Made by a program: the position numbers and the translations under genes. From Amia ocellicauda (Eukaryota; Chordata; Actinopteri; Amiiformes; Amiidae), in assembly GCF_036373705.1 (NCBI RefSeq), contig NC_089857.1:32098284-32162283 (forward strand): a stretch of 64,000 nucleotides of DNA, read 5' to 3'. Positions 4,826-62,700 of the stretch are shown one piece after another; positions within the stretch are counted from its first letter, which is position 1, and the number at the start of each line of letters is the position of its first letter. Under the pieces are notes generated by a model. That model had not been told where the DNA came from. It was given only the letters and a program-made list of their open reading frames with translations, and searched no databases.

Positions 4826-4882
4826 GGAGTGCATGTAGCTGCTGATCTATACGTGACAGCCAGCTAACACTACACTGCCTTA
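4826..4882 (-). ncRNA. mir-449: miR-449 family hairpin, copy 4 (last in transcription order)
   Basis: On the minus strand the 5' arm reads AAGGCAGTGTAGTGTTAGCT and continues GGCTG, carrying the miR-34/449 seed GGCAGTG and the family tail TTAGCTGG. After a loop of about 10 nt the 3' arm (CAGCAGCTACATGCACTCCC) pairs back imperfectly. It is the most degenerate stem of the four and lies 1.3 kb from the others, separated by LINE debris. Same strand and same host intron as the other copies. Confidence 0.75.
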
Positions 4883-5222
4883 TCATTACACACGGTTTTT
4901 GGCTGTCTTTATTGAGGATTTTCAGCACATGTCTGTACAACTACAGTTCTTCGTTACAGCAGCATACAGAATCAATATGCAGAAAATCCCAATAAATCAC
5001 CACAATGATGAATATATGCATTTATATATGTATTTAAATGGAAAATGTACTGAGATTAAAAGGTCTTGCGTAAAACAGTATATTTTTCTATCAACCTGCC
5101 ATTTTAACATTTTCACTCTTTCAATGATGTCACATATTTGTGTTTGTTCTCTGATGCATTCATTTATTTTTCTGTCTCATTTTGTTATACATATACATAC
5201 ACATTTACATGATTCCTTGTTT

Positions 5223-5577
5223 CGTCCGCAGTTTCTGTATCATTTTTGCATGTAGTGACCACATTTCACAACCATAAGTGAGGACTGGTAGTATGCATTC
5301 ATGAAATACTTTTCACTTCTGGTAAATGGGTCGATTATTTGCTTTCAATTGCATGCTGTTTCCAAATGCACTCCATCTGTTAATCTACTTCAATTATCTT
5401 AGTTTGCATAAAGCTGTTAAACATGACTTTGGCAGTTTTCTTGCTTGAATCTGAGAGTTCTGGAGGGTTCTGAAGACCTGCACCTTCAAATTCCAAAACT
5501 CTTGGATGTAAGTAAGATGCAAATAAGAAAACTGGACTCAAAATGAATTTGAGTAAGATCAAAATCATATTCAACAA
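5223..5577 (-). mobile_element. Degenerate LINE piece, reverse-transcriptase C-terminal region
   Basis: The minus-strand translation contains KVMFN, then after an apparent internal deletion GWSAFG-like and CILPVLTYGCEMW, typical of the region after the reverse-transcriptase domain in RTE-like non-LTR retrotransposons. Stops and frameshifts show it is dead. Family assignment is by motif only. It lies in the CDC20B intron between miR-449 copies. Confidence 0.6.
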
Positions 5578-5603
5578 CTTTGCAAAAAACTAAGAAAAGA
5601 TAC

Positions 5604-6062
5604 CTGAAGAAGTCAAGTTATATCTAGCTCAGAAATTAACACAGATAGAGATCTTATGAAAGAAATCAAAAGAAGAGTGAAGTACATTTGTAAGAAATTG
5701 CACTCTACTGAAAGAAATTGTACCGATTTGCTGTAAAGGAAAAGTATACTAGCACTGCTCACTTATGGGTCTGAAACCTGGTCATTAAACACAAAAATGG
5801 TATAGAAACTGAAAACCACACAAAGGACCATGGAAAGATGTATAGTTGGAATAACACAAAGAGAAAAGAAAACATACACTAAATGGATCAGAGAATAAAC
5901 AAAAATATGTAAAGTCACTGAAATCATTGAAAGAGTGAAAATGTTAAATGGGCAATGGGCTGGACATATTGCAAGAAGACCAAAGACAGAGAAAAGAAGC
6001 TATAGAAGGGATCCCAAGAGATACAGAAGACGACAACATAAAGGATAGGAAGAGTAAATAAA
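5604..6062 (+). mobile_element. Degenerate LINE piece in the opposite orientation
   Basis: The plus-strand translation (with stops) shows EINTDRDLMKEIKRR, then ALLTYGSETWSLNTKMV, then RTMERCIVGITQREKK and NGQWAGHIARR. This is the same C-terminal region of a non-LTR retrotransposon as the piece at 5223-5577, but inverted. Both pieces contain the LTYG(C/S)E segment, so this is two copies or a rearranged insertion and not a simple 5' inversion. Confidence 0.65.
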
Positions 6063-6202
6063 ACAATTTAAGACTATCTATATGGCATAATTTAGTTTAA
6101 TTTATTTGAATATGGCAACTCCATTCTTACTGGAATCGCTTTGGTTCCCCATGAAGTAAAATGTAAATTCTATGTCAGTTTTGGTTGTTATACTATGAGC
6201 AG

Positions 6203-6266
6203 CAAGAGGGCAGTAGAAACGTAAGCTGGTGAAAACAACAAAACCAGCTAACGTTGCACTGCCTTC
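6203..6266 (-). ncRNA. mir-449: miR-449 family hairpin, copy 3
   Basis: The minus-strand 5' arm is AAGGCAGTGCAACGTTAGCT followed by GG. The 3' arm, CCAGCTTACGTTTCTACTGC, pairs along about 21 nt across a loop of about 12 nt (arms at 6243-6263 and 6208-6230 on the plus strand). The seed GGCAGTG is intact; the next base is C where the other copies have T. The 3' arm resembles miR-449a-3p, which supports a real precursor. Confidence 0.85.
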
Positions 6267-6325
6267 CAGCCACACACACAACCACAGAGTAAAGCGTTCT
6301 AGATGGTACTTAACTGTTGCGAAGT

Positions 6326-6394
6326 GTGCAGTTAGATAGCAGTTGAAATGTAAGCTGGTACCATTTTCACAGCCAGCTAACGTTACACTGCCTT
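6326..6394 (-). ncRNA. mir-449: miR-449 family hairpin, copy 2 (miR-449a/b-like)
   Basis: The minus-strand 5' arm, AAGGCAGTGTAACGTTAGCT continuing GGCTG, matches miR-449a/b through the seed, the next T and the TTAGCTGG tail. The 3' arm, ACCAGCTTACATTTCAACTG, pairs well across a loop of about 10 nt (arms at 6370-6392 and 6338-6359). It starts about 130 bp from its neighbours, as expected for a tandem microRNA cluster processed from one intron. Confidence 0.9.
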
Positions 6395-6479
6395 ATAACC
6401 AACACACAGCAGTAAGGAGACGAGTCCTCCACATCCTCCGAACAATCTTCAATGCTCTTTGATGACGCTCTTGCCTTGC

Positions 6480-6548
6480 AGCAGGTGGCAAAGTAGTAGC
6501 GGCTGCTACAGACAGACACAGCAGCCAGCTAACAGTACACTGCCTACC
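6480..6548 (-). ncRNA. mir-449: miR-449 family hairpin, copy 1 (miR-449c-like)
   Basis: The minus-strand 5' arm is TAGGCAGTGTACTGTTAGCT followed by GGCTGCTG. The leading TAGGCAGTGTA and the GGCTG end resemble miR-449c. The 3' arm, TAGCAGCCGCTACTACTTTG then CCACCTGC, closes a long stem with CAGGT/ACCTG at its base and a loop of about 10 nt. It is the first copy after CDC20B exon 2 in the direction of transcription. Confidence 0.88.
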
Positions 6549-7359
6549 TGACACAGACACTCATATACTAGGCATTTGCTTTTTGATACCTCTTGTGGGT
6601 TTCACTATATCTTAGTTAGTTTGTTTTGTCTTATTGTATAAGAAATAATTGCTGCCCCCAAAAAACAAAAAACAAAACAAAAATAAACTGAATTGTACTT
6701 TACAGTTGTAAATACTCCCATTCAATAGAAAAGTCAACCATGTGTTGGTAACACACAATGGATGTGTCGACACCAGTCTGAATTTCAGTTACACTGAGTC
6801 ATTGAAAGGAACAATGTGGAGTGGAAGCAGTAACTGTCAGACACATAACAACCAGCAGCGATACACTGACATACTGATAAAAAGAGCTTCTGCTCACAAG
6901 AAAATGTCAAGGATTTGAAAACATAATGTATTTATCAATTTACTGGTAGGACATGTTGTAAGAAAATATACTCAATTTGAACAAATCCATGCATTCACTT
7001 GTTTCTTAATCATACTTGTGATTTAAGTTACTTAAATACTGATGTGCAACTAATTTAGTATGGATAAAATGTATTCATCAAAGTCTAGCCCTAAATGTAC
7101 GTGACTGATTTAGACCAATTTTAACAGCTAAACATCAAAACTATTAATGAATGTTTGTGCCAGTATTCACCCATAGTTTCACACAGTCCATGTGCTCATG
7201 CAGCTTAAGTCAATATTACAATTCTGATATATTCTGCCTCAATATATCTTTGCTAAGAATGTGATAAATAAAACAACTGACATATTACACTACATCTATG
7301 ATAGTCATTGTCAGTCATCATGTAATAAACTGTTGCTTTATCCTTAAATATAATCTTAC
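6549..7359 (-). other. Remaining CDC20B intron 2
   Basis: AT-rich intron between miR-449 copy 1 and CDC20B exon 2. No further hairpin with the GGCAGTG seed and no coding exon was seen. Confidence 0.5.
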
Positions 7360-21000: not shown

Positions 21001-23074
21001 TGTAACAACCTCAGGGACAAGGATGATGGATCCAACTGCAGGCTCACTAATTAGATCCAACAAGGGGAAATCCAAAAGGCAAAAAACAAGGACTGTCCAG
21101 GGGTCAGTCGATTGGGCAAACAGGCTAGACAGGGAGATCCAAGAGAGGTAGTCGGGCAAAGGCAAACATCAAAACACAGTTAGTTACAAAGATAGGAAAA
21201 GTGCAGCAGAGGCGGCGCCAGCAGGGATGGCCACGGGGCCGAGGGGCTGGAGCAGTAGGATGAGTTTGGTGAATCTCCTCGGTCAGGGACAGGTCCAAAA
21301 CATCAGAAGCAGCCACCCAGAGCATTCCTCTGGACCATAACCCTCCCAATCAGTCAAGTACTGCAGGCACCCCTTGTGGCGATGGGAACGTAGCAGGGAC
21401 CAAACTGCATATGCAGAACCATCGTCAAGATCCAGCTGAGGAGGCGGAGAGGGAGCGGCCACGGACTGAGCAGGGGAAGGTGAGGGATCCAAGCTCACTG
21501 GTTTCAGCAGGGAGACATGGAATGAAGGTGAGATTCTGTAATGAGGGAGCAACTGCAGATGGTACGTAACAGGATTGATCTGGTGGAGAATGTGAAAAGG
21601 TCCAATGAAACGCGGGCTCAGTTTTCTTGATGGGAGTTTCAGCTTGATGGCCCAGGTGGATAACCAAACCATCTGTCCAGGGTGATATTGTGGGGCTGGT
21701 CATCGGTGGTGGTCTGCCATGGCCCTTTGATGACAGCAGACGCTTAGCAGAGACGGACATGAGCTTCATTCCATATGGCCGTACTACGGTGGAACCAGTC
21801 AGTCAGTTAGTGGGATCCTCGTCCCAAGGAAACAAGGGTGGTTGGTATCCAAGGACACTTTTTTTATATATATATATATATATGTTTTGAACCAAGCTCG
21901 AACCATACATTGATCAGGTGTTACCAGGGGACAAAGTTTAGTACTCACAGGGTTCTCTGGGGCAGCTGTGGAGGATCCGGGATGAATGGAACAGGTCTCA
22001 CGGAAATGCCACGACTGTCCACAATTGAGACAGAGGCACTGCTGTAATCTTCACTGTCTCTTCTGTGGGCAGGTGGGTTCTTCCCAATTGCATGGATTCC
22101 GACTTGAACACAGGGCTGGGCGTGAGATGAGGTCTGGCAAGTGGTCGGGATACTGCAGACATGGAATATTTCTCTCGTCTTCATTAAATTGTCCAACCTG
22201 ACAGCAAGCTGGATCAGTGGTTCCAGAGTGAGCGCCTCGTCCTTGCAGGCTAGCTCGGCTTGCAAGTCATTGTGCAGACCAGGACGGAACAGTTACAGGA
22301 GCGCGCTCGTCCCATCCACTCATCTCTGCCAAGGTTTGGAACTTCAAGGCATATTCTGTGATGGAAGAGGAACACTGATGAAGAAATACATTTTTCTCCA
22401 GCGTCTCTCCCAGCTGCTGGATGGTTGAAAACCTCCTTGAAGTGGTCAAGAAATGCTGGTAATGACTGTCACCTCTCCTTCTCAAGCCCAGACAACGGAT
22501 GCCCACTGAAGCGCCTTCCCAGTAATCAGTGTTATAATGAAGGCAATCTTCGCTTCATCTGAAGGGAAGGGTGTGGGTGATGTGCAAAGCAAAGAGAGGA
22601 CAAATCCTTTGCAGCAGTCAGGAGCACCATCGTATTTATCTGGTATAGCTAGCTGGACTGGTCTGACAGGGTCTACAGGAACTGCTGGGACAGGAGCTAC
22701 TGCAGGGGCTGCAGCTGCTGGGAGTTCAAGTGGTTGGTTTGACAGCCTTTTGAGGACCTGGTCCAAGGTGGCTTCAATCTGTCTCAGCATCTGTTCATGC
22801 TCACCCAGCAGGGCTCCCTGAGCGGTCAGGGCGGCAGCCACATCTGGTAGAGCCGCTGGATCCATATGGTAGGCGAAGTCTTATGTAACAACCTCAGGGA
22901 CAAGGATGGTGGATCCAATTGCAGGCTCACTAATTAGATTTAAGAAAGGCAAACAATCCAACAAGGGGAAATCCAAAAGGCAAGAAACAAGGACAGTCCA
23001 GGGGTCAGTTGATTGGGCAAACAGGGAGATCCAAGAGAGGTAGTCGGGAATGAGAAGGCAAAGGTCAAAACACA
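21001..23074 (-). mobile_element. Internally deleted Ty3/Gypsy (chromovirus-type) element
   Basis: Two direct repeats starting TGTAACAACCTCAGGGACAA (21001-21178 and 22884-23074) are short diverged LTRs, differing by indels of about 9 and 20 bp. On the minus strand, gag starts at 22865 (MDPAALPDV) and continues with frameshifts to a zinc knuckle of CX2CX4HX4C form (CLNCGQSWHFRETC, about 22000-22050). It then jumps to the integrase C-terminus ([20 protein letters not shown]) and a chromodomain ([12 protein letters not shown]) before about 21190. Protease, reverse transcriptase, RNase H and integrase core are missing; the junction lies near an AT run at about 21860-21885. No matching target duplication flanks it. 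Non-autonomous and broken. Confidence 0.85.
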
Positions 23075-24720
23075 GGGAGCAAGTGTAGAGAGAGAAAAGG
23101 AGGGGGCCCAGGATGGAGCCTTGGGGTACGCCTGTGAGGAGATGTTGGGGGGTGGATCAGGAACCTCGCCATGTTACTTGATAGGTCCAGTCATTGAGGT
23201 AGGAGGAGAACCAGGTAAGAGCACTTCCAGAGATTCCAAGGTCAGCAAGGCACGAGAGGAGGATGGAGTGATCAACAGTGTCAAATGCTGCTGAGAGATC
23301 AAGGAGGATGAGGACTGAGGAGAGGGAAGCCACTGAAGCACAGCTGAGGGAGTCAGTGACTGCCAGGAGAGCAGTCTTAGTGGAGAGAGCTGTGCGGAAT
23401 TGCAGCCGGATTGCAGAGGAACCAGGAGTGAGTGATGGGAAAGAAATGCAGAGAGCTGATGAGGGTCTTTGAGAGGAAGGGGAGTTGGGAGACAGCGGTA
23501 GTTCTGAGGAGAGGTGGGGTCAAGGGTAGGTTTCTTGAGGAGTGAGATGACAGCAGCTTGTTTAAATGCAGAGGGGAAACAGCCAGAGAGGAGTGAGGAG
23601 TGAGGAGATGAAGGGGAGTAGATCAGGAGTGGTTGCTTGGAAGAGGCGAGTGGGGAGAGGATCCAGGGCACACGTTGTAGGTATGTTACCTAGGAGGAGA
23701 GAGGAAAGTTCAGAGTCTGAGACAGGTGAGAATGAAGAAAAGGAAGCTTGGTCAGTGGGTGACTTGCGCGTGATGGGAGAGGAGGGGGGACTGTTGAAGA
23801 GCTTGCGAATTTCTGTGATCTTGGAGGAGAAGAAGGAGGCAAAATCGTCTGCAGTGAGAGATGAGGGAGGAGGAGGGGGAGGGGGGCAAAGAGGGAGGAG
23901 AAGGTGGAGTAGAGTTTGCGGGGGTTGTTGATAGTGGATTCAAAGAGTGATTGAAAGTAAGACTTCTTGGCTGAGGTGAGTGAGGAGGAGAATGTGGACA
24001 TTTGAGAGCGATAGAGTTCGAGGGCAGCTGGGAGTTTGGACCTTTTCCACTTCTGTTCAGTGGCACACAGACTGGATTGGGTTGAGTGGAGAATGGAAGA
24101 GATCCAAGGCTGAGTAGGGCAGGAACAGACAGGACGAGATGTGAGAGGACAGAGAGAATCAAGGGAGGAGGTGAGGGAGGAGAACAAAGAGGTAGCACAG
24201 TTGACAGATAGATGGGAAAAACAGTCAATGGAAGGTAAGAGAGTGGGAGCAGTGGAGACAAGAGTGGGTGGGGTGGGGAGGGAGGGGAGAGAAAGGGAGA
24301 AGGAGATGAACTGGTGGTCTGAGATGTCCATGGGTGTCACGGAGAGTGTCGAAGGGGAGCAGCCTCTAGAGAAGATGAGGTCTAGCTGGCGGCCTGCCCT
24401 GTGAGTGGGGGGAGACAGGGAGAGAGAAAAGTAAAGGAGTGAAGGAGAGGAAGAAATTCGGCAGAGTGGGGGGTGTTGGAGAGGTGGATATTGAAGTCTC
24501 CCTGGAGGATGGTAGGTGAGGACAGTAAGTGGAGGGAGGAGAGAAGAAAGTCGAGTTCATCCAGGAAGTAGGCGAGTGGACCGGGGGGATAGTAGAAAAC
24601 TAGGAGGAAGAAGTGAGAGGGAGAGGTGATTTCCACTGCATGGAATTCAAAGCTGTTAGTCATGATAGAGGAGAGAAAGGTTGGGACAGAGAAGAGGAGA
24701 GAAGGGGAGAGCAGGAGCCC
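23075..24720 (-). mobile_element. L2/CR1-like LINE fragment: endonuclease to mid reverse transcriptase
   Basis: In minus-strand order with frameshifts: endonuclease motif GDFNIHL (about 24500), endonuclease motif SDHQFISF (about 24310), reverse-transcriptase start SAFKQAAVISLLKKPTLDPT (about 23560), AFDTVDHSILLSCLADLGIS (about 23250-23290), and GVPQGSILGPLLFSLYT (about 23085-23140). It stops exactly where the Gypsy LTR begins, so the catalytic YxDD part and 3' end are missing. The strong purine bias on the plus strand follows from Ser/Leu/Pro-rich coding on the minus strand. Confidence 0.8.
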
Positions 24721-27743: not shown

Positions 27744-28525
27744 GTGAGAACTCGTCTGCTCCGCATGAGGAGGCGAGGAAGACGGCATCGGAGAGCGCGA
27801 GTCGTGGTCGGGCCGAGACATCCGCACATGACAGCGCGAGAAGAGGCAGCGCCCACGGAAGAATCAGGTTTCATAACGCAAATGAAGCTGTAATTCAGAG
27901 ACATTAAGCGTTCTGGGCAAGAGAATGAGACATTTCTTTGCATTTCCCATTAGTTAATGTTTTGTTTACTTACCTTTTCTCAAATTGAAGTGGATTGATA
28001 TTGCTACTGTGTTGATATTGTGTCTACTGATGAGTAGGATGTGAATATTAAGAACTATTAGTACCGAGAGTAAGGCAGAATTGGTCATATTTAGACTTAA
28101 AAGTGAATGGTTATTACTTAATGTGGTATATGTACAAGTTTAACTAAGAGTTAATATTTTTGGTTTGTTTAATTTCATTTGTGGTAATTTAAGATTTAAA
28201 TAAGGCCATATATAACTATAACAAGTTATCAGGCAAGAAGACCATAGCTCCATAGATCACAAAGTGAGTGTTACTAGTCTTTGAGTACAGTTAGTACAGT
28301 TTTTATTTTGGAAAAAGCAAGTTAATTTAGCTGCAGAGAGTAATTTTTCTCCAAAGTAGTGTCAGTAGCTGCAAGTAATTAAAGGCTGACTATTCACATA
28401 TCAGAGATTAAAAACAACTACTCAATTGAGCTTAAGCTAAATTAAACATAACTTAGATTATTGTGAACAAGGTAATTTACTCAACTAAAAAAAACAAGTT
28501 TAGATTTAAACCAAACTAAAGCAAA

Positions 28526-31500
28526 ATGTCAGAGTTTGAGCTTTTCTTTGAGAGTGACAAAGAGGGTGCAGGTGAAGACGCGCAGCAGCACTGCGCAGAC
28601 ATGCAACCACAAGCTGCTGAAGGCACAGGAGATAACCACACTTCCTCACAAGAGCCACATAGAAGCCAAAGGGTCCGCAGGTTTACGGAAAAGGGCCAAG
28701 AACTGCACGATCAGCAAGTAAGAAGATTTGCACACCGTTTCAGTGTGAGCTACGAGAAGTGGAAAGCTATCGCTAAGGATGCCAAACAAGCGCTGAGTGG
28801 ACAATGCTCAAACAACCTGCTGCGTGACCACATCACTAAGATAAGCAATGCCTCAGATAATCTGAACGTTGTTTATGAAGATTTAAGGCACATTGACATT
28901 CCCGACCAAGACACACGTCGCAGAGCAGACACCTGCGAAGCAGTAACAAGTACAATCATCCAGACTGCAAAGGCTCTTCTAGACACAAGAGGGGGTGAAG
29001 AACAAAGAGTGAAATCAATAGAGTCTGTAATTGAAGCTGCAGCCTCAGACAAAGTAAGCGTCAACTCTCACCGCACCAAGTCGTCTGCTCATTCTCAAAC
29101 TAACTCAAGAATAACATCCCGTTCAAGCCAGTCTTCTGCAAGACGAGATGCTGCTGCTGAAGTTGCTGCCAATGAAGCCACTTTAAAAGTACTGCTAGAG
29201 CAAGAACGTCATATCAAAGAACTTGAAAGACTCGAAACTGAAGCAGCCAATTTACGAGCTAATCAAGAGGCTGAAAATGCAGAAAGACAAAGGGTGCTGG
29301 AAGCCAAGCACAGAGAACTAGAAAGATTGGAGACAATCAAGAAGCTAGAGGCTGCTAAGGCGAGACAGCAAGTATATGAACAAAGTGAATGCTCAGATGA
29401 AGAAATATTTGGGCTGCTCCATCAATGTGTCCCTCCGAAGGAGAATGAGGAAGTCAAGCATGAAAGTAGCCTATTGCAGCATCGCTCCCCACCTCACTCT
29501 CTGACACAACCAAAACAAGAAGACAATACTGCAGCTCTTGTTAGAGCATTCGCAGAGTCCATCAGTGCGAGTCGTCTTCCCGTACCTGAACCAACAACGT
29601 TCAACGGCGACCCACTCAGATTTAATGACTGGAAAGTCTCCTTTCAGACACTTATTGACAGGAAAAACATACCAGCTGAAGAGAAAATATACTATCTGCG
29701 AAAGTATGTGGGTGGACCAGCCAAAAAGGCCATTGAAAGCTACTTCTTGCTAGGCACAGAGTCAGCTTATTGTGCAGCGTGGACCATCCTAGAAGAGAGA
29801 TACGGCAATCCATTCCTTATCGCCAAGGCCTTCAGAGATAAGCTTGATACGTGGCCCAAAATAAACTCTAAGGGGAGTGTGGAACTTCAAGAACTCGCTG
29901 ACTTCCTTCGCAGCTGTGAGGCGGCCATGTCTCAGATCAGAGGTCTTGAAGTACTCAACGACTGCAACGAAAATCAGAAAATACTCTCTAAACTTCCAGA
30001 CTGGCTGACCTCAAGATGGAATAGGAAGGTGATAGAAGTGGAAGAACAAAGTCACACGTTCCCAAGCTTTAGCCAGTTCGTCAAGTTTCTCACACGTGAA
30101 GCCAAAATCGCCTGTAACCCAATAACGTCCCTCCACGCTCTAAAACCAAGTGAAAATGAGAAGATCAAGGTTTCAAAGACAAGAGGTCATGGAGCAAAGG
30201 TATTGGCAACCAACTCAGACGAGAAAGCTGTTACCACAAGCTGTGTCTTCTGTGAGAAGGCAGGTCACAGTCTACACAAGTGTCGCAAATTTATGGATGA
30301 GACTATTTCAGAGCGAGTCAAGTTTGTTCAAGAGAAGAAATTGTGTTTCGGCTGTCTGAAGTTTGGCCATCGCTCGAAGGACTGTGAAAACAGAGAGATC
30401 TGCGATATGTGTGAAAAAAGACATCCAGCTTGCCTCCATGATAATCGCACCAAAGAAGAAAGGATGTCAACACGGCTTAGTGGAGCAGGGAACAGTGGCA
30501 AGTCAAGGGAAAGGAAAATAGAGCGGCCACAAGATAGGGCAGCAAGATCATCACGTGAGTCAACATCCAACAGAGTTTTACAGAATGTTAAAGACACTCA
30601 TACATCCACAGTCATTCCAGTGTGGTTGTCAGTCACAAGTGAGCCAGATCGTGAAGTTCTTGTGTATGCACTCCTCGATACACAGAGCGACACGACATTC
30701 ATCCTGGAAGAAACGGCAAAGACTCTTCACACAAAGAAGGAACCAGTTCAGCTAAAGCTCTCCACAATGGCTTCAAGAAACACAGTTGTGTCCTGTCGGA
30801 AACTGACTGGACTACAAGTGAGAGGATTCTACTCAGACAAGATAATTCCTCTGCCAGTGACCTACTCAAGAGAATTCATCCCTGCAAACAGAGATCATAT
30901 TCCCACACCAGAGACTGCAAAGGCATGGCCTCATCTGGAACACGTCGCAGACGAGATTGCTCCTCAACAAAGCTGCGACGTGGGCCTGCTAATCGGCTAC
31001 AACTGTCCTCAAGCTCTTGTCCCAAGGCAAGTGGTGCCTGGTAAAGAAAATCAGCCCTTTGCTCAGAGAACAGACCTGGGCTGGAGCGTAGTTGGCTATG
31101 GCAACCCATGTCTTGACTATGGAGATGAAATTGGAATAAGTCACCAGGTCATCGTGAGGCAAGTGATGCCTGGTCTTCAGTCCTCTTCAAACCTCACAAG
31201 CGAAGTTCACTATGTCTGTAGAACTCAAGTCAAAGAGGTAGTCTCACCTGCAGATGTCATCAAGGTGCTGGAATCGGACTTTGTCGAAAGGTCTTTGGAG
31301 GACAGTCACATCTCTCAAGAGGATCTCCGATTCCTGTCAAAGATGGAAAGAGGCATCAGGCTCAAGGACAATGGTCATTATGAGATGCCACTGCCATTCA
31401 AGAATGAAATTCCCAACTTACCAGATAACATGGTGTGCGCCATCCACCGTCTCAGATGCCTAGAACGGAAGCTGAAAAGAAACAAACAGTACTACAAAGA

Positions 31501-34500
31501 CTACAAGACCTTCATGGATGAGATCATAACACGTGGAGATGCAGAAAGGGTCCCAGAAGTAGACCTCAATAAAGCTCCAGCATGGTACATCCCACACCAT
31601 GGGGTGTATCATCCCCAAAAGCCTGGGAAGATACGTGTTGTCTTCGATTGTTCGGCGAGATTTCAAGAGACATCCTTAAACGACCATCTCCTGACCGGTC
31701 CAGAGCTGACAAACACCTTGGTGGGAGTTCTGTGTCGTTTCCGGAAAGGTCCAGTGGCAATCATGTGTGACATTGAACGCATGTTCCACCAGTTCCACGT
31801 TAAAGCAGAAGACCAAGATTACCTAAGATTCCTGTGGTGGGAGAATGGAAATCTTGAAGCCAAACCATCCATCTACCGGATGAAGGTCCACTTGTTTGGC
31901 GCTGCTTCATCACCTGGCTGCGCTAACTATAGACTCAAGCACCTCGCAGCCGAAGGACACGGACACTTCAGTGAAGCCACCATCAAGTTCATTCAGAAGA
32001 ACTTTTACGTTGATGACGGCTTGTCAAGCTTAGCGTCTGAAAGCCAAGCTATTCAGTTAGTGAAGGAGGCAAGAGAGCTCTGCAACAAAGGCAAACTCAG
32101 GCTGCACAAGTTCATTTCCAACAGCAAGAAAGTCCTAGCCTCAATCCCCAAAGAAGAATGTGCAAAAGCTGCCCAAGACCTGGACATGGCCCTGGGAGAG
32201 CTACACGTGGAAAGAGCACTTGGCATACAGTGGTGCGTGGCTTCTGACGAGTTCCAGTTCAGAGTGATTGTGAAAGAAAATCCACTTACCCGAAGAGGAG
32301 TTTTATCCACTGTCGCTTCAGTATACGATCCACTCGGATTTGTGGCACCGTTCATCCTGGTGGGAAAACAGATTCTGCAGCAGATGTGTCATAACAAGCT
32401 CAGTTGGGATGACATCTTACCTGATGATCTTCGACCCCTGTGGGAGTTTTGGCTCCAAGACCTGCAAAACCTGGCTGGTGTAAAGATTCAGAGATGCTAC
32501 ATTCCATTAAACTTTAAGGTTCAGAGCTACGAGCTCCATCATTTCTCTGATGCCAGCGTGTCAGGTTATGGCGAGTGTTCGTACCTCAGAGCAGTCAGTG
32601 CATCAGGTGAAGTCCACTGCTCTTTGGTAATGGGGAAGTCAAGAGTAGCCCCTGCTAAGGTTACCACCATACCAAGACTTGAGCTGTCAGCAGCAGTCGT
32701 AGCCGTCCGCACCAGTGACATGCTCAAAAGGGAACTGGAGATAGATTGCCTACAGGAATTCTTCTGGACCGATTCAAAGGTTGTCCTCGGATACATCAGT
32801 AACGAGGCCAGGAGATTTCATGTGTTCGTGGCAAACCGTGTGGAACGCATCAAGCAAAGTACGGAGTCTGCGCAATGGAGGTATGTGGCTTCCGAAGAGA
32901 ATCCAGCAGATCATGCCTCAAGAGGTCTTGCAGCAAAACAACTTGTAGCTTCCAACTGGTTCACGGGTCCAAGCTTTCTTTGGCAGAAAGAGCTGACCAG
33001 CGAAGTAGTCAAGGTGGGAGAGATTGCAAGTAGTGATCCAGAGATCAAGAAGGCCCAGGCTCATGACACCCTGGCAAAGGAAATAAGGTCACTGTTAGAT
33101 TGTCTACGAAAGTTCTCTGACTGGTCAAGAATGGTGAAAGCTATAGCCAGACTAAAGCGGCGTGCAAGGGAAGCGAAAGGCCTCAGGCCAAGGTCCTGGG
33201 AAAGCACCAGTTTAGAGGAAAGGAGAGATGCAGAGCTCAGCATAATCAAGATGGTCCAACAAGCAACCCTCTCTCAAGAAATACAGGGCATCCAGTGTCA
33301 TAAGAACTCACAAATCAAAGACAAGGCCAACAAGTTACACAAGTTGGGTCCATTCCTGGATGACCAAGGTATCCTCAGAGTCGGAGGCCGCTTAACTCAT
33401 GCTGCTCTTCATCCACATGTGAAGCATCCAGCTGTTCTCCCTAGAGACAGTCACGTGTCGGCATTACTCGTCAAGCACTATCACGAGAGAGTGCACCATC
33501 AGGGACGGGGAATGACCATAAATGAGATCCGATCCAATGGTATATGGATCCTGGGATGCAGCAGGGCAGTGTCATCCCATATTTACAAATGCACAACGTG
33601 CAGGAAGTTCAGAAGATGCACAGAACAACAAAGGATGGCAAATCTCCCGGAAGATCGAATGGAAACAACCCCTCCATTTACTTACTGCGGGATGGACTGC
33701 TTCGGGCCATTCCACATCAAGGAAGGAAGAAAAGAGTTAAAGCGTTATGGACTCTTACTTACCTGCATGTGTTCCAGAGCAGTGCATATTGAAATGCTCG
33801 ACGACTTGACCACAGATGCCTTCATTAACGCTCTGCGTTCATGCATCGCTATTCGTGGAACAGTACGGCAAATAAGGTGTGATCAAGGGACAAACTTTGT
33901 TGGTGCCAGGCGTGAGTTCATTCAAGCATTAAAGGAGATGGATCAAGAGGAACTCAAAGAACTGAGATGTGAGTTCATCATGAACACCCCAGCTTCAAGT
34001 CATATGGGTGGCGTCTGGGAAAGACAAATTCGCACTATCAGAAGTGTCTTGACGTCCATTCTAGAACAGTCAGCCAGACAACTTGACTGCTCCTCACTAC
34101 GAACGTTCCTATATGAAGTTATGGCGGTTGTAAATAGCAGACCTCTGACCACTGATCATCTGAACGATCCATCCTGTCCAGAGCCCTTGACACCAAATCA
34201 CATCCTGACCATGAAATCCACGATCATCTCTCCACCTCCTGGAAAGTTCGTCAGGGAAGATCTGTACCTCCGTAAAAGATGGCGCAGAGTTCAACTCTTA
34301 GCCAACAACTTTTGGACACGGTGGAAAAAGGAATACCTCCTCAATCTCCAACAGAGACAGAAGTGGACCAAAGACCGCAGAAACGCTAAGGTCAATGATA
34401 TTGTCATTTTGCAAGATGATGCTACACCACGAAACCAGTGGAAGTTAGCAAAGGTTATTGAAGTGTACCCAGGAAAGGACGGAAGAGTGAGAAGGCTCAA

Positions 34501-34609
34501 GTTGCTTATCGGCGATTCAACTCTGGATGGAAGAGGAAAGCGCATCTCTAAACCTGTTCATTTGGAGAGGCCCATCCATAAGACAGTTACATTGTTGGAA
34601 GCAGACTGA
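28526..34609 (+). CDS. BEL/Pao Gag-Pol polyprotein, intact
   Basis: Single 2027-aa frame. Domains in order (approximate residues): Glu/Lys-rich coiled coil 205-285; Gag core of the DUF1759 type 355-510; zinc knuckles CVFCEKAGHSLHKC (573) and CFGCLKFGHRSKDC (607) plus a third Cys/His cluster; retropepsin-like region with LLDTQSDTTFI around D718; reverse transcriptase with motif A Asp (CDIERMF, D1082) and YVDD (D1163/D1164); RNase H-like region with FSDAS (D1342) and WTDSK; integrase with an HH-CC zinc region (about 1650-1695) and D1724, D1786, E1832 (45 residues between the last two); C-terminal DUF5641-type domain about 1905-2000. The retropepsin site has Gln where DTG/DSG is usual. Smaller frames inside are shadows. 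No stop or frameshift. Confidence 0.96.
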   Translation: MSEFELFFESDKEGAGEDAQQHCADMQPQAAEGTGDNHTSSQEPHRSQRVRRFTEKGQELHDQQVRRFAHRFSVSYEKWKAIAKDAKQALSGQCSNNLLRDHITKISNASDNLNVVYEDLRHIDIPDQDTRRRADTCEAVTSTIIQTAKALLDTRGGEEQRVKSIESVIEAAASDKVSVNSHRTKSSAHSQTNSRITSRSSQSSARRDAAAEVAANEATLKVLLEQERHIKELERLETEAANLRANQEAENAERQRVLEAKHRELERLETIKKLEAAKARQQVYEQSECSDEEIFGLLHQCVPPKENEEVKHESSLLQHRSPPHSLTQPKQEDNTAALVRAFAESISASRLPVPEPTTFNGDPLRFNDWKVSFQTLIDRKNIPAEEKIYYLRKYVGGPAKKAIESYFLLGTESAYCAAWTILEERYGNPFLIAKAFRDKLDTWPKINSKGSVELQELADFLRSCEAAMSQIRGLEVLNDCNENQKILSKLPDWLTSRWNRKVIEVEEQSHTFPSFSQFVKFLTREAKIACNPITSLHALKPSENEKIKVSKTRGHGAKVLATNSDEKAVTTSCVFCEKAGHSLHKCRKFMDETISERVKFVQEKKLCFGCLKFGHRSKDCENREICDMCEKRHPACLHDNRTKEERMSTRLSGAGNSGKSRERKIERPQDRAARSSRESTSNRVLQNVKDTHTSTVIPVWLSVTSEPDREVLVYALLDTQSDTTFILEETAKTLHTKKEPVQLKLSTMASRNTVVSCRKLTGLQVRGFYSDKIIPLPVTYSREFIPANRDHIPTPETAKAWPHLEHVADEIAPQQSCDVGLLIGYNCPQALVPRQVVPGKENQPFAQRTDLGWSVVGYGNPCLDYGDEIGISHQVIVRQVMPGLQSSSNLTSEVHYVCRTQVKEVVSPADVIKVLESDFVERSLEDSHISQEDLRFLSKMERGIRLKDNGHYEMPLPFKNEIPNLPDNMVCAIHRLRCLERKLKRNKQYYKDYKTFMDEIITRGDAERVPEVDLNKAPAWYIPHHGVYHPQKPGKIRVVFDCSARFQETSLNDHLLTGPELTNTLVGVLCRFRKGPVAIMCDIERMFHQFHVKAEDQDYLRFLWWENGNLEAKPSIYRMKVHLFGAASSPGCANYRLKHLAAEGHGHFSEATIKFIQKNFYVDDGLSSLASESQAIQLVKEARELCNKGKLRLHKFISNSKKVLASIPKEECAKAAQDLDMALGELHVERALGIQWCVASDEFQFRVIVKENPLTRRGVLSTVASVYDPLGFVAPFILVGKQILQQMCHNKLSWDDILPDDLRPLWEFWLQDLQNLAGVKIQRCYIPLNFKVQSYELHHFSDASVSGYGECSYLRAVSASGEVHCSLVMGKSRVAPAKVTTIPRLELSAAVVAVRTSDMLKRELEIDCLQEFFWTDSKVVLGYISNEARRFHVFVANRVERIKQSTESAQWRYVASEENPADHASRGLAAKQLVASNWFTGPSFLWQKELTSEVVKVGEIASSDPEIKKAQAHDTLAKEIRSLLDCLRKFSDWSRMVKAIARLKRRAREAKGLRPRSWESTSLEERRDAELSIIKMVQQATLSQEIQGIQCHKNSQIKDKANKLHKLGPFLDDQGILRVGGRLTHAALHPHVKHPAVLPRDSHVSALLVKHYHERVHHQGRGMTINEIRSNGIWILGCSRAVSSHIYKCTTCRKFRRCTEQQRMANLPEDRMETTPPFTYCGMDCFGPFHIKEGRKELKRYGLLLTCMCSRAVHIEMLDDLTTDAFINALRSCIAIRGTVRQIRCDQGTNFVGARREFIQALKEMDQEELKELRCEFIMNTPASSHMGGVWERQIRTIRSVLTSILEQSARQLDCSSLRTFLYEVMAVVNSRPLTTDHLNDPSCPEPLTPNHILTMKSTIISPPPGKFVREDLYLRKRWRRVQLLANNFWTRWKKEYLLNLQQRQKWTKDRRNAKVNDIVILQDDATPRNQWKLAKVIEVYPGKDGRVRRLKLLIGDSTLDGRGKRISKPVHLERPIHKTVTLLEAD

Positions 34610-53700: not shown

Positions 53701-56700
53701 TTGGTTTGCAGAGAAAAGCAAAGGTCTGTTTGTTTAGGTTGTATTAATTGCTCATAATGATGATGATGATAATCTGTATTGCTTCTATAAATAAATAAGT
53801 TAATCTAGATAACTGTCATAATGTGTAGTACTTGATCTTGTATTGGAGCTCTGAAGTAGTCTTACAACCCATTAATCCTCTTATACATCAGATACAAGGA
53901 CATAGTTTAAGAAAGCGGAATTTAAACATTGATAAATTTGATTTTTACAAATGCTTTAATACTTCTTTTTCGCTTAATGGTAAAATTCTGTATGCAGGTT
54001 AAATATTAAACTGATATCCTTTGTTGCATCTATCACAGTGGTCTACTTTGTAAAGTGAGTGCAGGCAATGACAACGCATACCTCACAACAGAGCACCTGG
54101 CAGCTCTGGCAAATCTGGAACCCTGTCTTACTCCTCTTGTGATTGCCTTCAGACACTGGGCCAAGGTAAAGAAGGGTTTCATTGTGGGTCAGCATTAGAA
54201 ATGTATCTAAGCCCTTCCAGTAAATGTTTTCTTAGTTGTACTAAAGCAGTCAGTCTGTTTCCCTCACAGATCTGCCATATTGACCACCCGGAGGAAGGAG
54301 GGTTGCCCCCTTACGTGTTGGCCTTGATGGTCATTTACTTCCTTCAGCAGAGGAAAGAGCCCGTGCTCCCTGTGTATTTGGGGATGGATGTAAGTGTTCG
54401 TGCCTGTGCTCCTCAATAAGCCAGCTTGGAGGCTGTTCCTAACCTTAAAATTTCACAAGTTAAAGAAAATCTGTCTGGATTATATAGATAATGTTAAAAA
54501 CTATCATCGTAAATCCGTGAAGTGGACCCCAAAGCTTTTATCATCGTATTGGAAATTCTGGACGATAACGCTAGACTTATTTTTGTATTTTCTATGGGAT
54601 GCATTTCATTATTTACAGACAGTCAGTTTATGTTGCCGAACTGCAATAAACCTCTTCATACCTACCCGTTTCTATAGTAGCTGTACATAATTAAAAGTAT
54701 GTAAAGCATACTATATACATTTCATTTGATTGTCTATTGTTTTTTTTTCATGTATTCTCCATTTAGTGCTTTCAAATTTATAATATGAATTAGAAAGCAG
54801 AGCATCTTTATAAAATATGAATTTCTAACTTCTGGTAGGCACATTGCTAGCTCCCCTCTTTGTGCTTGTAATTTGTTCATGATTTATGAATTAGTGTGCT
54901 GTTTTATGAGGTTTTATTAAAATAGTGCAATTTGTTTAAGCGGAAATGTCGCAGCTTTCTAAATTAACAACTCTGATTGGTTCTTGCATTTGCAGATTGA
55001 GGAGTTTTCTCTGAACAAACTTGTAGATTTCAGGCTTACTGGTGTGGAAGATGGTCATGTTTTGTGGGAGTATAACCCATCCCTGGATCAGGCAACCTCT
55101 GCTAAAGAGTTTGTCAGGAACGGCAAGGTGAGTGATGAAACTTCAGTAGCAAGTTTTGAGTGTGCATTAATATTTCAGAGGTACATGTAATATACAGGAT
55201 ACATTTTAAAAAAAATTAGATCCCTGGCTTTTACATTTACAAATTTATATGTAAATACAAATCATTGTACCCACTGTGGCTTTTGGCTGAGAGTGACTGG
55301 CATGAGACAGTGGATTAAACACAATTTTAATAAACAATAAATCGTCATCACAAAATGCACTAGACAGATTTTATCTATTAGCTTTTAGAACCAAGTCCAT
55401 CTGTATTATTCAGGATTTGAAAAGCATGTACTTGTTGAGGTGGTATGAGGAACATTATTCATTTTCTTTGTTTCCTGTTAAAGGCCAAGCTGGCATTTGG
55501 ACCAGAATGCCAACGTGAAGTGGCCATTGGGCAGCTGTGGGTAGAAATGCTTCGTTTCTATTTACTGGAGTTCAACATGGCCGATCATGTCATCAGCATT
55601 CGTATAAAGGAGCTCTTCACGAGGGAGTCCAAGGACTGGCCTAAAAAGAGAATTGCCATAGAAGGTAACATCTCTCTGCTAGCTTGTGTCTCTGCAGTAT
55701 ATACACCATTCACAAAAAGTACAATTACTCAATGTGCACACAGATTGAAATAGGATGTTATTGTGACTTAACATTACACAAACCCTTGTGGTTATTTTAG
55801 TATGTGTTTCTCATGTTATGTATCAAGTTTCTAGCCACTGAAATGTGTTCAGGGTAGTACTTGCATTTTCACATAATACTTTTGGCAGTGATGCAGTACA
55901 TGCACTGATATAGTCAAGTTTGCTGTTGCAACCACAGCACCAGAAATTGAGGTGGAAATCACTGGATTGGTCAAAATTGGAGGGACCATATAGTTTACTG
56001 ACACACAACTTTCATCAGTGACTTTGGCTATGTCCCTAATATTCTCCAAATACACTTGAAACTAGACATTAATTGTTCATATGTATAAGTAGAATTTGAG
56101 GTTTCGAAACATTGTCAAGTGTTTTTATTTCGTAAACCAAGGCTGTCACAAGTACCAAATAGTGTTGGCATTTTTTAAGCAGTTCTTGTGGATTGACATT
56201 TTCTGTCTTTGAATTTCAGATCCTTACTCTGTGAAGAGAAATGTGGCAAGGACTCTCAACAGTCAACTCATGTATGAGTACATTCTCCATTGCTTAAAAA
56301 CAACCTATAAGTATTTTGCTTCTCCTTTTAAAAAGTACGGGAAGCTGAACAAGCAAAATCACAAACGGGAAGAGTTTCAAAGCCCTGTAGCTGCACACAG
56401 TGGAAGGGAAGAGAATATGCCACCAGATCTGGATGAGTTGCGTTTGATCCAGTCAGAATTAGACGGTCTCAGCATCGACAGTCACATCATGAATGGGACG
56501 ATTGTGAAGCATGTCTGTGAAGAAAGCCCGGATGCAGTTTTTCCAGAAATGGCAGGCTGTAATGCCAGTTTAACAGAAGAACTTACCTCCCTGAAAAGCG
56601 ATGGTGGGCTACTCCAAGATAACTTCGACTGCATCATAGAAGAGTTAGTAATTGAAGAACCTGATGGTTATGAGCCCCGTTCCGGTGAAACGGAAAGTGG

Positions 56701-59700
56701 CAATGAAGAGAACGAAGCAGGAGACATAAAGGGGGAGTTGTTCTCTTTACATGGTAACCAACTGTTGGGGGAGGAGAGTGAGGACACCGACCCCACAAAC
56801 TTGCCTTACTTCCAGCAAGAACTGGAGAATGAGATCGAAAGCCTTTCTGATTCAGAAGGTGGTTTGCACACGGGAACTGTGGACAGCGACGACTTGGGCC
56901 TAGAGGAATCTGGGAAACTAGACCGGGAGGATGAGTTGGGAGACTCGTTGCACCAGCTGCCAGGAACACGGAAGAGGCTCGCCTTTGAGAGCAATAACTC
57001 GGATGATGAGGAGGAGGAGGAGGATGTGAACCACAGAACTCACCTGGACAGCCTTACTGTGGAAGATGAACTGGAAAATATGTACACCGCTTCGGGAGAA
57101 GAGGTCCTCTCTGACGATGACGGTGGGCACAGTGTTCACGTTGAGGCTCACAGTTCTGTGAAGGAAGGCCTTAATGGCAACAGGGATTCCAGTGAGATCA
57201 ACACTCCTCTGAAAGAAGGTCCCCCAAAAACCTGCTCTGTGTCTGCAGATCAGGGCCAACATGAACCTGTTTTGAGCTACGAGTTCAGTAAACTTCAGTT
57301 TACTAGAGGAAAGGTAAGGATGTTCATTCAGAAAAGTGCCATTTTTACTGTCCTTGTAATTATCAGTCTTGTTACTGTTAAGCAGAGTGATTTGAGTTAA
57401 CCTTTGATTTGAATGAAAAATCCCTATTTAAAATAGGATGTGTGAACAAATAAAACCAACAAGATTAACAGAAACATTCTCTGCAGTCGCCCACAGTGGT
57501 ATGCAGTCTGTGCAAGCATGATGGACATCTGAAACGTGACTGCCCTGAAGACTTCAAGAGGGTTGAACTTGATCCTTTACCTCCAATGACACCAAAGTTC
57601 CTTACAATACTCAACAAAGTTTGCATTCAGTGCTTCAGTAAGTTCAATATATACTTCAGTATCAATACTTTTTGATGCTATTGATTGGGCCACTTGATGA
57701 CTTTAAATACAAAAGCTATAAGCAACTTAAGTAAACTTATTATGTGCAGTGCATAAAATAGACATTAGTACACATCTTTCCCTTATAAATTAGGCTACCT
57801 TTACACAGTAGAAAAAGTCTCATAATACCCAAGGTATGTGTTTTTCTTTCTTCCTCCAATGTGTAAAGAATAGGATTTTTCCAATTTGTTGAAGTACTAC
57901 ATAGAGGGGAAAAAAGGATTTCAGAGATTTGTCTTTTTTCTTCTTTTTTTTCTTTCAGGTTCTATAGACTTGAAGTGTTTTCATAGAAAAGATGTTGACA
58001 TGATTACCTTTCTCACCCACAGATGATTTTTCTCCAGACCTGATAGAAGAAAAAGCTCGTGAGAACATTCTGCAGAACCTGGAAGACTTAATCAGTTATG
58101 ACCTGGAAGGTATGGACACTCTTCTTTCAAACGCATGGGCCAGCAACTCAACTTCCATATCAGAATGATCATTGTGAAAATAAGCATTGATCACACTCTA
58201 ATTCACTTTCCACATTTATTCATTTTTTATAGGAGCCAAATTAAGTTTATTTGGATCTTCTAAAAATGGATTTGGCTTCAAAAAAAGTGATCTGGACATC
58301 TGCATGACATTTGAAGGAAGAGAAACCGCAGAGGTAAATGTGTTTTGTCAGTGTGTTACCTGTTAAACTTTGTTTTGAAAGGAAATATAGTTTCTATAGA
58401 GACACTTGCTGATTATTATTGCTTAGTACCCTTGTTTTGTCTTTCCCTCCCCCCGTCTCCTATTCACAATGCATGTCCCTGAAATATAAAATAGAACCTA
58501 ATGTATATAATATATAGAAGGTTTAAAGTAATTCTCTGAGACTTTAAAAGTTTAGTTTTATACCGATATTCTATCTTTGGGTTCAAAGTATAATCTTGAT
58601 CCTGATCATTTTGACAGTACTCAGATCATATACTATGTGTATTACCATTATAGTATGTCCTGTTTTGTTTATACAGTGAAATTAAGTGTTTTAATATTTT
58701 CTTAGGGTCTCCAGTGCATTGGAATAATTGACAACTTGGCTAAAGTGCTCAGGAAGCATCCAGGTATGGAGCTTATATAGTGTGATTTCTAGTCATGCGT
58801 TATTTTTCCAGTTTGGACTACTTGTATAAAAGGAATGTCTGATATTGTAATCTTTTTACTGATACTGTTGGCCAAGGTACCTGTTTTTAGAACTGAAGAA
58901 TGATCTGCATTGAAGTCAAATGTTTCATAGTTTTTCTTTTGTTTGTTTTTCCTTTGTGGAATTACAGGTCTACGAAATATACTGCCGATTACAACTGCCA
59001 AAGTTCCAATTGTAAAGTTTCTGCATGTGAGAACTGGTCTGGAAGGAGACATTAGCCTGTATAACACACTGGTAAGGGATTACTATCATTTTTTTTATTT
59101 TTTTTTACCCTTTGCTTACCTGATAGAAGTAACTGAAAGATATATATATTTTGTCCCCCTTTCCCTCCTCCTCTAGGCTCTGCATAACACAAAACTACTT
59201 GCTGCTTATGCCAATATTGATCAAAGAGTGAAACATTTGTGCTACACCATGAAGGTGTTTGCAAAAGTAAGTATTTTCTTTGTTGATTCTGTCAATCATT
59301 CAACACATTTTAGAGATTTATCTTTTCTAGTAATGTTTTTAATAAGCATACATGTGAGGATATTAAATAGAATAAACTGTGAAATGTAAATTTTATCAAC
59401 ATGTAATTATAAACAAAGCAAAGCTCAGTGAACCCTCAGATATAGCAATTTAAGTGTTGGTTATTGTAAACAAGAATTAAATTTGCCATAGTCTGTAACT
59501 GCTACTGTTGGCCCAATTTGGCAGGTAGCAGGTTGAAGTGATTTATGTTCATTGTGTCTTGATTTCTCCTGCCCTCTGCAGAGTCATTTGTTGTTTTGAC
59601 AAATGGGTTCAATGTTTCCCTTCCGTTATCATTGAAAGATTAACCTCTATTTTGCAGATATGTGACATTGGAGATGCATCAAGGGGTAGTTTGTCATCTT

Positions 59701-62700
59701 ATGCCTACACTCTCATGGTGCTGTACTTCCTGCAACAGAGAAACCCACCCATCATTCCAGTTCTTCAGGAGGTAATGCATATTTTTATTAAGATTGAAGA
59801 GATTTTAGTGTTTTTTTGTCCAACATCCAGAGGTTACATTGTAAGCATATTAAAAGAACAAGCATATTACAAATACAACTTGTGTCCCTTTTCATGTGTT
59901 TTTAAAAGGCAAGACTGTAACTTCAAACTCATGTTTAAATGTCTTAAAGCACAGGCAGTTGTAGTGTTGGTAAAACAGGGTTCTGTTCCAGTACGTGTCT
60001 TTGGTCACAGACAAAAAAAGTGGTTTTGCTTTGGAGGGCATTTTAATGCTGAAACTATATCTTACATTCTTGTTACTGGATGATAGTGTGGCTTTTTATC
60101 AGGAAAAAGCTGATTTAAAAAAAAAAAAAAAAAAAGCTGCCTGTTTGGGAAAACCTCAAAAGCTGGCAAAGAAAGTCTGTCATAATGAACATGTCAATTC
60201 TGCTCAGCAGCACCACCAAAGCTATTTTACTTTAATGCTATATAGTGTTTAGCTTCTCTGCTGAATACGTGTTTCACGGTTTAATCATCTAATCTAATTT
60301 GGTTTGTATTATTGTAATGGGCTGCAATATGTGGACTAATGTCTTCGTGGTGTTTTTGTTTCCTTTAATATTACTCCTATAGATTTACGATGGCCCAAAG
60401 AAACCAGAGGTACTTGTGGATGGTTGGAACGTGTACTTCTTCAATGATCTAACCGATCTAGTAAGTTAATGTTTTTTTTGTTTTCCAACATATTATTCTT
60501 TATCTAAAATAGATAGGCATTTCTGATATATATCTTCGAACGTTTTACAGCCAAACCGGTGGCCAGAGTATAGAAAAAACACCGAAAGCGTAGGGGAGTT
60601 GTGGCTGGGATTGCTTCAGTTCTACACCGAAGAGTTTGACTTCAAGGAACATGTCATCTGTATCCGGAGAAAGAAACTGCTCACCACCTTCAAGAAGCAG
60701 TGGACATCGAAGTACATTGTTATTGAAGGTGAGAAGTGGATTCAAACTTGTAAGAGTAAGCACGTGGTGAGAAATTCTAAAGTTATGCAATGTATTTATA
60801 GTTATGGATTTCAAAAGGAAGTAATCTCAACCAGAGATGGTCACAATATTAAATTGACTGCTGTATGAGTGAATCTGGAGAGGAATTAGTTGCATTACAA
60901 TTTAAATTATTGTTGTTGTTGGTTTACTGACATTTTACGATGGATGTTTAGAGATTCTCTGAGATAATCATGTTTATAACCATGACAGAAAAGGTAAAAG
61001 TGAGAGAATATTGTTAATCATATTACATTGGCTTTTCTGCTTCACTCAGTACAACTTTGACAGGAGCCAGCAGTTCATACAAGATTCTTGTGCCTGATTA
61101 ATGCCAATCCACAGTTTACACATTTTTCATATCTTTATTATTTACATCTCCACCTTTACTTATTTTCTTTATAATTTTCCCAGATCCCTTTGACCTGAAC
61201 CATAACCTTGGTGCTGGATTGTCAAGAAGGAGTAAGTCTTTCGGTTTTGGCATCTGAATGTATTTCTAGTTTCGTTTCTTTCAGTATGAGTATTTTTACT
61301 TGTCTATCTTTCATAGTGACCAATTTTATCATGAAGGCCTTCATCAATGGGAGGAGAGTCTTTGGTTCCCCAGTTAAAGTCTTCCCCAGTGAATACACTT
61401 CTGAAATGGTAGGTCTGATTTTCAAAGTACCCTTTTCTTTTTCATTTTTTTTACTGCCTTTAGACTTATGAATGAAGTTAAGATTATTCTTAACTTATTA
61501 AAGAAAAACTTTTTAAATCAGCGTTTTAAATAAATGATCCACGCATTAATTAACGGATCTCAAATGTAAAGGTTTTCTGAAAACGTTTTCTTAATGGCAT
61601 GTGTGTCATTCACTGATACTGATCTGTTTTTAAATATATAAAGCCCAACACACGCCTACACTCTCTCATAAAAGACGTCAGCTTCCATTCAGTACAGCCC
61701 GTTCTGTGGCTGAATTGTTAATGGAACAAATAGTCAATTTACAAAGCTGTTATACTGTAGCAAATTCTAGTAAAGTAAAAGGAGCATGTTTTGGATTTGT
61801 GTTTGTACTGACAAACATATTTCTGCATTCCATATTGTGCTGCTTTGTCACTCAATTATAATATATATATATATATATTTTTTTTTAGAAAACTAAAACT
61901 ATAAATGTGCCATTTCATTTGCTGTTAATTTAGTTTGCATTACAGTATGCAATGTCATGGCTTAAGTCACTGACAGCATATTCAATGCTTCTTTTCAGGA
62001 GTATTTCTTTGATCCAGAAGTGTTGACAGAGGGAGAACTGGCACCAAATGACAGGTGCTGTCGAATCTGTGGAAAGATTGGACACTTCATGAAAGACTGT
62101 CCATTGCGCAGAAGGTATCTATCACAGATTTCAGTGGCTGATTTGTAGAGTTGTGCACTTCAACTTCAATCCTGTCTTGCAAACTAAAGTATTCACCACC
62201 TGGTGGCAGAGCAGTGCTGTAGCAGATGCTGAGTATAAGCTCTGACTGAAAGGCAGGCTGTTAATGTGTGCTTGTGTTATTTTTAAAAGGTGCCGACCAC
62301 ATTACAATTAAAAAATAATAATGGTGGAATGTATTTATGTCAACAGATTAAGGCAGAGGCATGACCATCGAGGTCACGAGGATGCTTTTTATCAAAGGCG
62401 CCACTATGGAGACAGTGAGATTAGGAGGTCGGATGCTTCGGCCCCAAGATGGAGGGCAGAGAACCAGGTGGCGGGCAGAGAGCAGAACCCCCGACAGGCC
62501 TCCGACAAGTGGAGGAAGCAGGACGACCGAGAGTTCAGAGAGAAACGCTGCTTCATCTGTGGTTCCGAGGGACACATTAAGAAAGAGTGTCCTCAGTACA
62601 AGGGCTCTTCAGGTATGCAATAGTAGTAGTAGGGATTTGCTCTTTCATATCCAACTTTGCAGAGTTAATGTAGTTTTGTGGAAGGATTGCATCATTAAAG

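Follow-up and report, generated by a model that had tools for sequence, protein, structure and literature searches.

The window analysed here, a stretch of 64,000 nucleotides from the bowfin Amia ocellicauda, carries four hairpins of the mir-449 type. All are on the minus strand, at 6559–6472 (H1), 6408–6323 (H2), 6278–6194 (H3) and 4894–4810 (H4), and each has an arm of the form GGCAGTG...TTAGCTGG (6544–6525, 6392–6373, 6263–6244 and 4879–4860, respectively). With up to two mismatches allowed, the 20-base arm pattern matches at four places in the 64 kb, each without a mismatch. Dinucleotide shuffling of the window gave a mean of 0.01 arm matches, and four matches were reached in none of the 100 shuffles. 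A preliminary description of this DNA had reported four minus-strand copies with such arms, and this count holds for the whole window. When three mismatches are allowed, nine matches are found against 4.46 expected, and nine or more occur in 7 of 100 shuffles. Since this looser pattern is near chance, only the exact arm matches carry meaning. The heptamer GGCAGTG itself occurs 14 times on the two strands of the window, the miR-449 arms making up four of these.

The start of the putative 5p product was set at the A that precedes GGCAGUG. Thus defined, the putative 5p sequences are AGGCAGUGUACUGUUAGCUGGC in H1 (6545–6524), AGGCAGUGUAACGUUAGCUGGC in H2 (6393–6372), AGGCAGUGCAACGUUAGCUGGU in H3 (6264–6243) and AGGCAGUGUAGUGUUAGCUGGC in H4 (4880–4859), and the seed GGCAGUG occupies positions 2–8 in every one of them. 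The start-to-start spacings are 152 (H1–H2), 129 (H2–H3) and 1384 (H3–H4) bases; the earlier statement that three hairpins lie about 130 bp apart is therefore accurate for one gap and too short for the other. H2 and H3 form an ungapped repeat of 77 nt with 74% identity, which marks them as tandem sisters. A search of the window for tRNA genes with ARAGORN (bacterial code) gave none.

Among Rfam families, mir-449 (RF00711) ranks top at all four places when the whole window is searched, with E-values of 5.2e-9 for H3 (51.0 bits), 2e-8 for H4 (49.1 bits), 1e-7 for H1 (46.8 bits) and 8.6e-7 for H2 (43.7 bits). When 2.2 kb was searched alone, the E-values ranged from 1.8e-10 to 2.9e-8. The assignment to the miR-449 family made previously is thus borne out, though none of the hairpins attains the gathering score of 60.4 bits, which is a curated cut-off for listing and not a biological feature. 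A scan at the gathering threshold listed no family, and the matches given here came with E-value scans. In the 2.2-kb search, weak mir-449 echoes were also seen on the plus strand at three places (24.7, 22.9 and 18.8 bits; E 0.016, 0.055 and 0.91), because the complement of a hairpin gives such matches.

As independent support for the four hairpins, folding is mixed. Compared with shuffled sequences, the stability z-scores are −4.80 for H3, −3.29 for H4, −2.26 for H2 and −0.84 for H1, with 37 of 200 shuffles of H1 folding equally stably. The stem-loop check put forward in the preliminary description thus came out clearly past shuffles for three of the four hairpins, H1 excepted. In the minimum-energy folds, 16 (H1), 17 (H2), 19 (H3) and 17 (H4) of the 22 5p bases are paired, and H1 and H4 have one unpaired seed base each. 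The minus strand of the intron was further scanned in 297 windows of 84 bases with 60 shuffles each, 11 of which had z below −3. H3 came second (−5.49), H2 only just reached −3.0, H4 had −2.47 and H1 was outside the best 20; seedless windows rank equally high, the top one (4908–4991, z −5.55) being without the seed. RNAalifold, applied to the alignment of the four hairpins, gave 25 consensus pairs, at six of which both sides had changed in at least one sequence, and a consensus energy of −8.5 kcal/mol, a weak value obtained from four paralogues, which are few.

Another hairpin on the minus strand, at 4905–4990, lacks the miR-449 seed and is very stable (−29.5 kcal/mol); it lies 10 bases 5′ of the Rfam match of H4. 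It had no Rfam match at E up to 1 and no second copy by blastn within the window. It may represent either a miRNA-like hairpin of no relation to the cluster or what is left of a palindromic transposon.

Upstream of the hairpins and on their strand, an open reading frame (ORF) reads MDWKLERYSRFKIKTEDAMRW up to a GTAAGT donor, and the next exon, bounded by an ACAG acceptor and a GTAAGA donor, reads ETIMSILAKDFTRTRRHYPFRMRK. A search with these 45 residues, with six candidates, brought back one protein, the A. ocellicauda ‘cell division cycle protein 20 homolog B-like’, a record of 508 residues that is 100% identical over the 45 in the window. The two are coding exon 1 (7639–7577, residues 1–21, 21 of 21 identical) and coding exon 2 (7431–7360, residues 22–45, 24 of 24 identical) of CDC20B. 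The remaining 463 residues (46–508), searched by tblastn against the window, gave chance-level matches only, the best of which (E 0.39) is on the plus strand in an ORF of TUT7; likewise, neither a splice-site scan nor tblastn of the bowfin protein located exon 3 in the window. Because exons 1 and 2 are matched and the rest of the protein lies outside the window, the cluster is placed in CDC20B intron 2, which runs on the minus strand from the exon 2 donor past the low end of the window (7359–1). All four hairpins are on the strand of their host, so the same-intron, same-strand arrangement proposed at the outset is supported.

On the plus strand, three coding exons of GPX8 are found at 237–443, 985–1246 and 1606–1769. 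The middle exon has a GSHPx domain (E 2.8e-27) and matches the GPX8 structure 3kij (E 1.2e-34); the first and the last, which contains the stop, were placed by sequence and splice sites, the ORF of the last alone being without a Pfam match. The joined protein is 100% identical to Amia ocellicauda GPX8 across all 210 residues, and spotted gar GPX8 comes next with 81% among the matches listed (the best 120 of 581 proteins). The DNA had been attributed to a fish, and it is indeed from the bowfin, which NCBI taxonomy classes in Holostei, Amiiformes, although this single protein would also be compatible with a sister species of Amia. The whole of GPX8 (237–1769) appears to be nested inside CDC20B intron 2, on the strand opposite to the host and together with the miR-449 cluster. 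The same intron has an inverted repeat in the H3–H4 spacer (5097–5294 and 5746–5954, 75% over 210 aligned bases), which is probably a leftover of mobile elements that lengthened the spacer; three ORFs near it, between H3 and H4, had no match in Pfam.

MCIDAS and CCNO lie upstream of CDC20B and on its strand. A minus-strand ORF at 40666–40367 contains a coiled-coil exon of MCIDAS, as it matches the multicilin chain 4bry_B (E 1.9e-7) and, below the cut-off, Pfam Geminin (E 9.4e-4). Another at 39620–39174, whose translation ends in DHCTIRT...RWVPS, has what we presume is the last coding exon of MCIDAS, its TIRT stretch being, we assume, the TIRT end of multicilin; Pfam gave only a chance-level match to WD40 for this ORF (E 0.039). 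Two minus-strand ORFs with cyclin domains, at 46334–45858 (Cyclin_C E 9.3e-10, Cyclin_N E 1.5e-4) and 46967–46746 (Cyclin_N E 2e-18), are named CCNO by position. Thus, MCIDAS and, by position, CCNO adjoin CDC20B as expected of a multiciliary locus. Beside CCNO, exons of TUT7 (terminal uridylyltransferase 7) follow on the plus strand at 56213–57397 and 60527–60865 (E 7.4e-20; PAP_assoc in the latter, E 1.6e-13). Mobile elements are present as well. An uninterrupted plus-strand ORF of 2029 residues at 28520–34606, with a Pao retrotransposon peptidase, DUF1759 and DUF5641 as well as weak reverse transcriptase and integrase matches, lies between CDC20B and MCIDAS and represents an element of the BEL/Pao type. 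Broken retroelement pieces occupy separate minus-strand ORFs at 21286–23519 (Tf2-1-like SH3, 3.8e-20; reverse transcriptase, 1.7e-6; DUF4939, 8e-5).

The hairpins were also compared with human miR-449a, b and c, over the 55 nt after the 5p only, with provisional human precursor sequences and with 2000 shuffles. With these provisional sequences, H1 scores 53.0 against human 449b (35.0 against 449a, 34.5 against 449c) and H2 scores 53.5 against human 449a (28.5 against 449b, 37.0 against 449c), and neither best score was equalled in the 2000 shuffles. H3 is closest to H2 (50.5), followed by the provisional human 449a (39.5). H4 has no clear subtype, with 35.5, 37.0 and 35.5 against the provisional human 449a, 449b and 449c and 41.0 against H1. 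Equating H4 with human 449c or 449a was dropped, as both score 35.5 and 11 and 22 of 2000 shuffles, respectively, did as well. The human 449b-3p string is present in print, and the H1–449b match is therefore firmer than the H2–449a match. A literature search for a provisional human miR-449a-3p string gave no paper that contains it, and this string does not agree with the 3p portion of the provisional 449a precursor that served for the comparison. Since the two provisional 449a sequences disagree, at least one of them is wrong, and the H2–449a match rests on that part.

In human, 449b comes before 449a in transcription, about 0.1 kb apart, and in bowfin the b-type H1 likewise starts 152 bases before the a-type H2. 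The human 449c is upstream of 449b, whereas the lone member in bowfin is downstream of the trio. Going by sequence, we read H1 and H2 together with H3 as what may be the old b–a pair, the a-type member of which would later have been copied in tandem.

Taken together, we consider the four hairpins to be the orthologous miR-449 cluster of bowfin, i.e. four miRNA genes in CDC20B intron 2, with a probability of about 0.93. The hairpins, their seeds and strand, the host exons and the neighbours are read directly from the DNA; the identity of the cluster is supported by mir-449 being the best Rfam family (E at most 8.6e-7), the shared seeds, the host strand common to all four, the CDC20B exons, the adjoining MCIDAS and CCNO, the changes on both sides at 6 of the 25 consensus pairs and the likeness of H1 to the provisional 449b and of H2 to the provisional 449a. 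It is weakened by the scores under the gathering score, the z-scores of H1 (−0.84) and of H4 in the sliding scan (−2.47), and the weak consensus energy (−8.5 kcal/mol).

That the hairpins are instead miR-34b/c, the other clustered locus of the family, is highly improbable. Such a reading would be served by the identical seed and by weaker, unnamed matches from the same Rfam clan, which overlap the hairpins (four in the 2.2-kb search, two in the whole window), but Rfam favours mir-449 at all four places and the host is CDC20B. In addition, the form GGCAGUGNANNGUUAGCUGG, in which extra bases separate the seed from UUAGCUGG, is presumably that of miR-449, and this counts against miR-34b/c. Less credible still is that the cluster consists of chance or repeat-derived inverted repeats without miRNA function. 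The intron does have another stable hairpin (4908–4991) and the inverted repeat pair in the H3–H4 spacer; against this, four arm matches never arose in 100 shuffles, and a known gene is fitted by position, strand and family.

We also weighed, as unlikely though worth keeping in mind, that not all four are functional miRNA genes, with H1 or H4 perhaps in decay. The low stability of H1, equalled in 37 of 200 shuffles, and the single unpaired seed base in each of H1 and H4 would agree with decay, as would the position of H4, which starts 1384 bases from H3, past the inverted repeat. Disagreeing with decay, however, the seed and GTTAGCTGG are invariant in all four while loops and flanks vary. Furthermore, H1 after its 5p is like the provisional human 449b, and this likeness argues for long constraint on H1.

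If the orthologous cluster works as the miR-34/449 family is known to, Drosha and Dicer would excise the hairpins from the CDC20B primary transcript and the 5p arms would go into Argonaute. The miRNAs would be co-produced with CDC20B in multicilin-controlled cells and would repress targets in the cell cycle, in Notch signalling and of the CP110 type, letting precursor cells stop cycling and form multiple motile cilia. The predicted function is thus most likely the known role of miR-449 in promoting multiciliated-cell differentiation, a role of miR-34/449 that is reviewed in PMC11545745. The cluster is a real, ordinary and expected addition to a known system, and no new mechanism is claimed.

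In the passages searched, a teleost miRNA review (PMC4159003) and a sturgeon miR-34b/c paper (PMC9511750) have miR-449 in the reference list only. It is absent from PMC8789304, and the main text of the bowfin genome paper (PMC8423624) contains neither ‘microRNA’ nor ‘miRNA’. No paper on bowfin miR-449 was found among the matches listed; the one match for miR-449 together with bowfin is a Xenopus study (PMC4015847). FishmiRNA includes bowfin and gar data (PMC12060346), and the bowfin miR-449 genes may already be listed there. The literature covered also includes PMC5363356 and PMC11896067.

The human miR-449 cluster (c, b, a) shares with that of bowfin its family, seed, host CDC20B and location in the second intron, which is given in PMC6220262 together with the requirement of CDC20B for multiciliogenesis in mouse and Xenopus. 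The bowfin cluster differs in having four copies, with the tandem pair H2/H3, and in that H4 is not clearly 449c (35.5; 11 of 2000 shuffles as good). Chicken, likened by names alone, has four named members in one species, i.e. miR-449a, b and d (PMC7565416; 449a also in PMC6815035) and miR-449c (PMC7552605), so four copies are not beyond precedent.

Among fishes, miR-449 is named in Atlantic salmon (449a/b, PMC6356880) and Atlantic cod (PMC4403832), and MCIDAS, CCNO and CDC20B are reported together in Latimeria (coelacanth), euteleosts and Callorhinchus (elephant shark) (PMC8470418). These share miR-449 or the multiciliary locus with bowfin, going by reports and not by hairpin sequences, and none is holostean. 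In zebrafish (Otomorpha), CDC20B and mir-449 are reported lost and the synteny broken (PMC8470418), unlike in bowfin, which has both; multiciliated cells there are regulated by miR-34b, which belongs with miR-449 to the miR-34/449 family (PMC11545745). From this literature, the locus dates far back in jawed vertebrates, fishes do have miR-449 and the zebrafish clade lost it. The earlier suggestion of a lineage that kept an ancestral arrangement, with miR-449 not described from zebrafish, should be moderated as to novelty: on these reports, the exception is zebrafish and not bowfin.

In bowfin, and hence among the holosteans, which are the sister group of teleosts, CDC20B with its intronic miR-449 is now found grouped with MCIDAS and CCNO. 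The evolutionary point is a modest one and concerns the ancestral order of the cluster. We give even odds to the proposal that the split into b- and a-types, and the b–a order with about 0.1–0.15 kb between them, is older than the divergence of ray-finned and lobe-finned fishes, with bowfin keeping the ancestral order of bony vertebrates, H3 a later local gain and H4 an ancient member, perhaps of a subtype lost in mammals. The holostean locus supports the published view that the lack of CDC20B and miR-449 in zebrafish is a loss, and given that loss, bowfin or gar may suit better than zebrafish for asking what miR-449 adds beyond miR-34.
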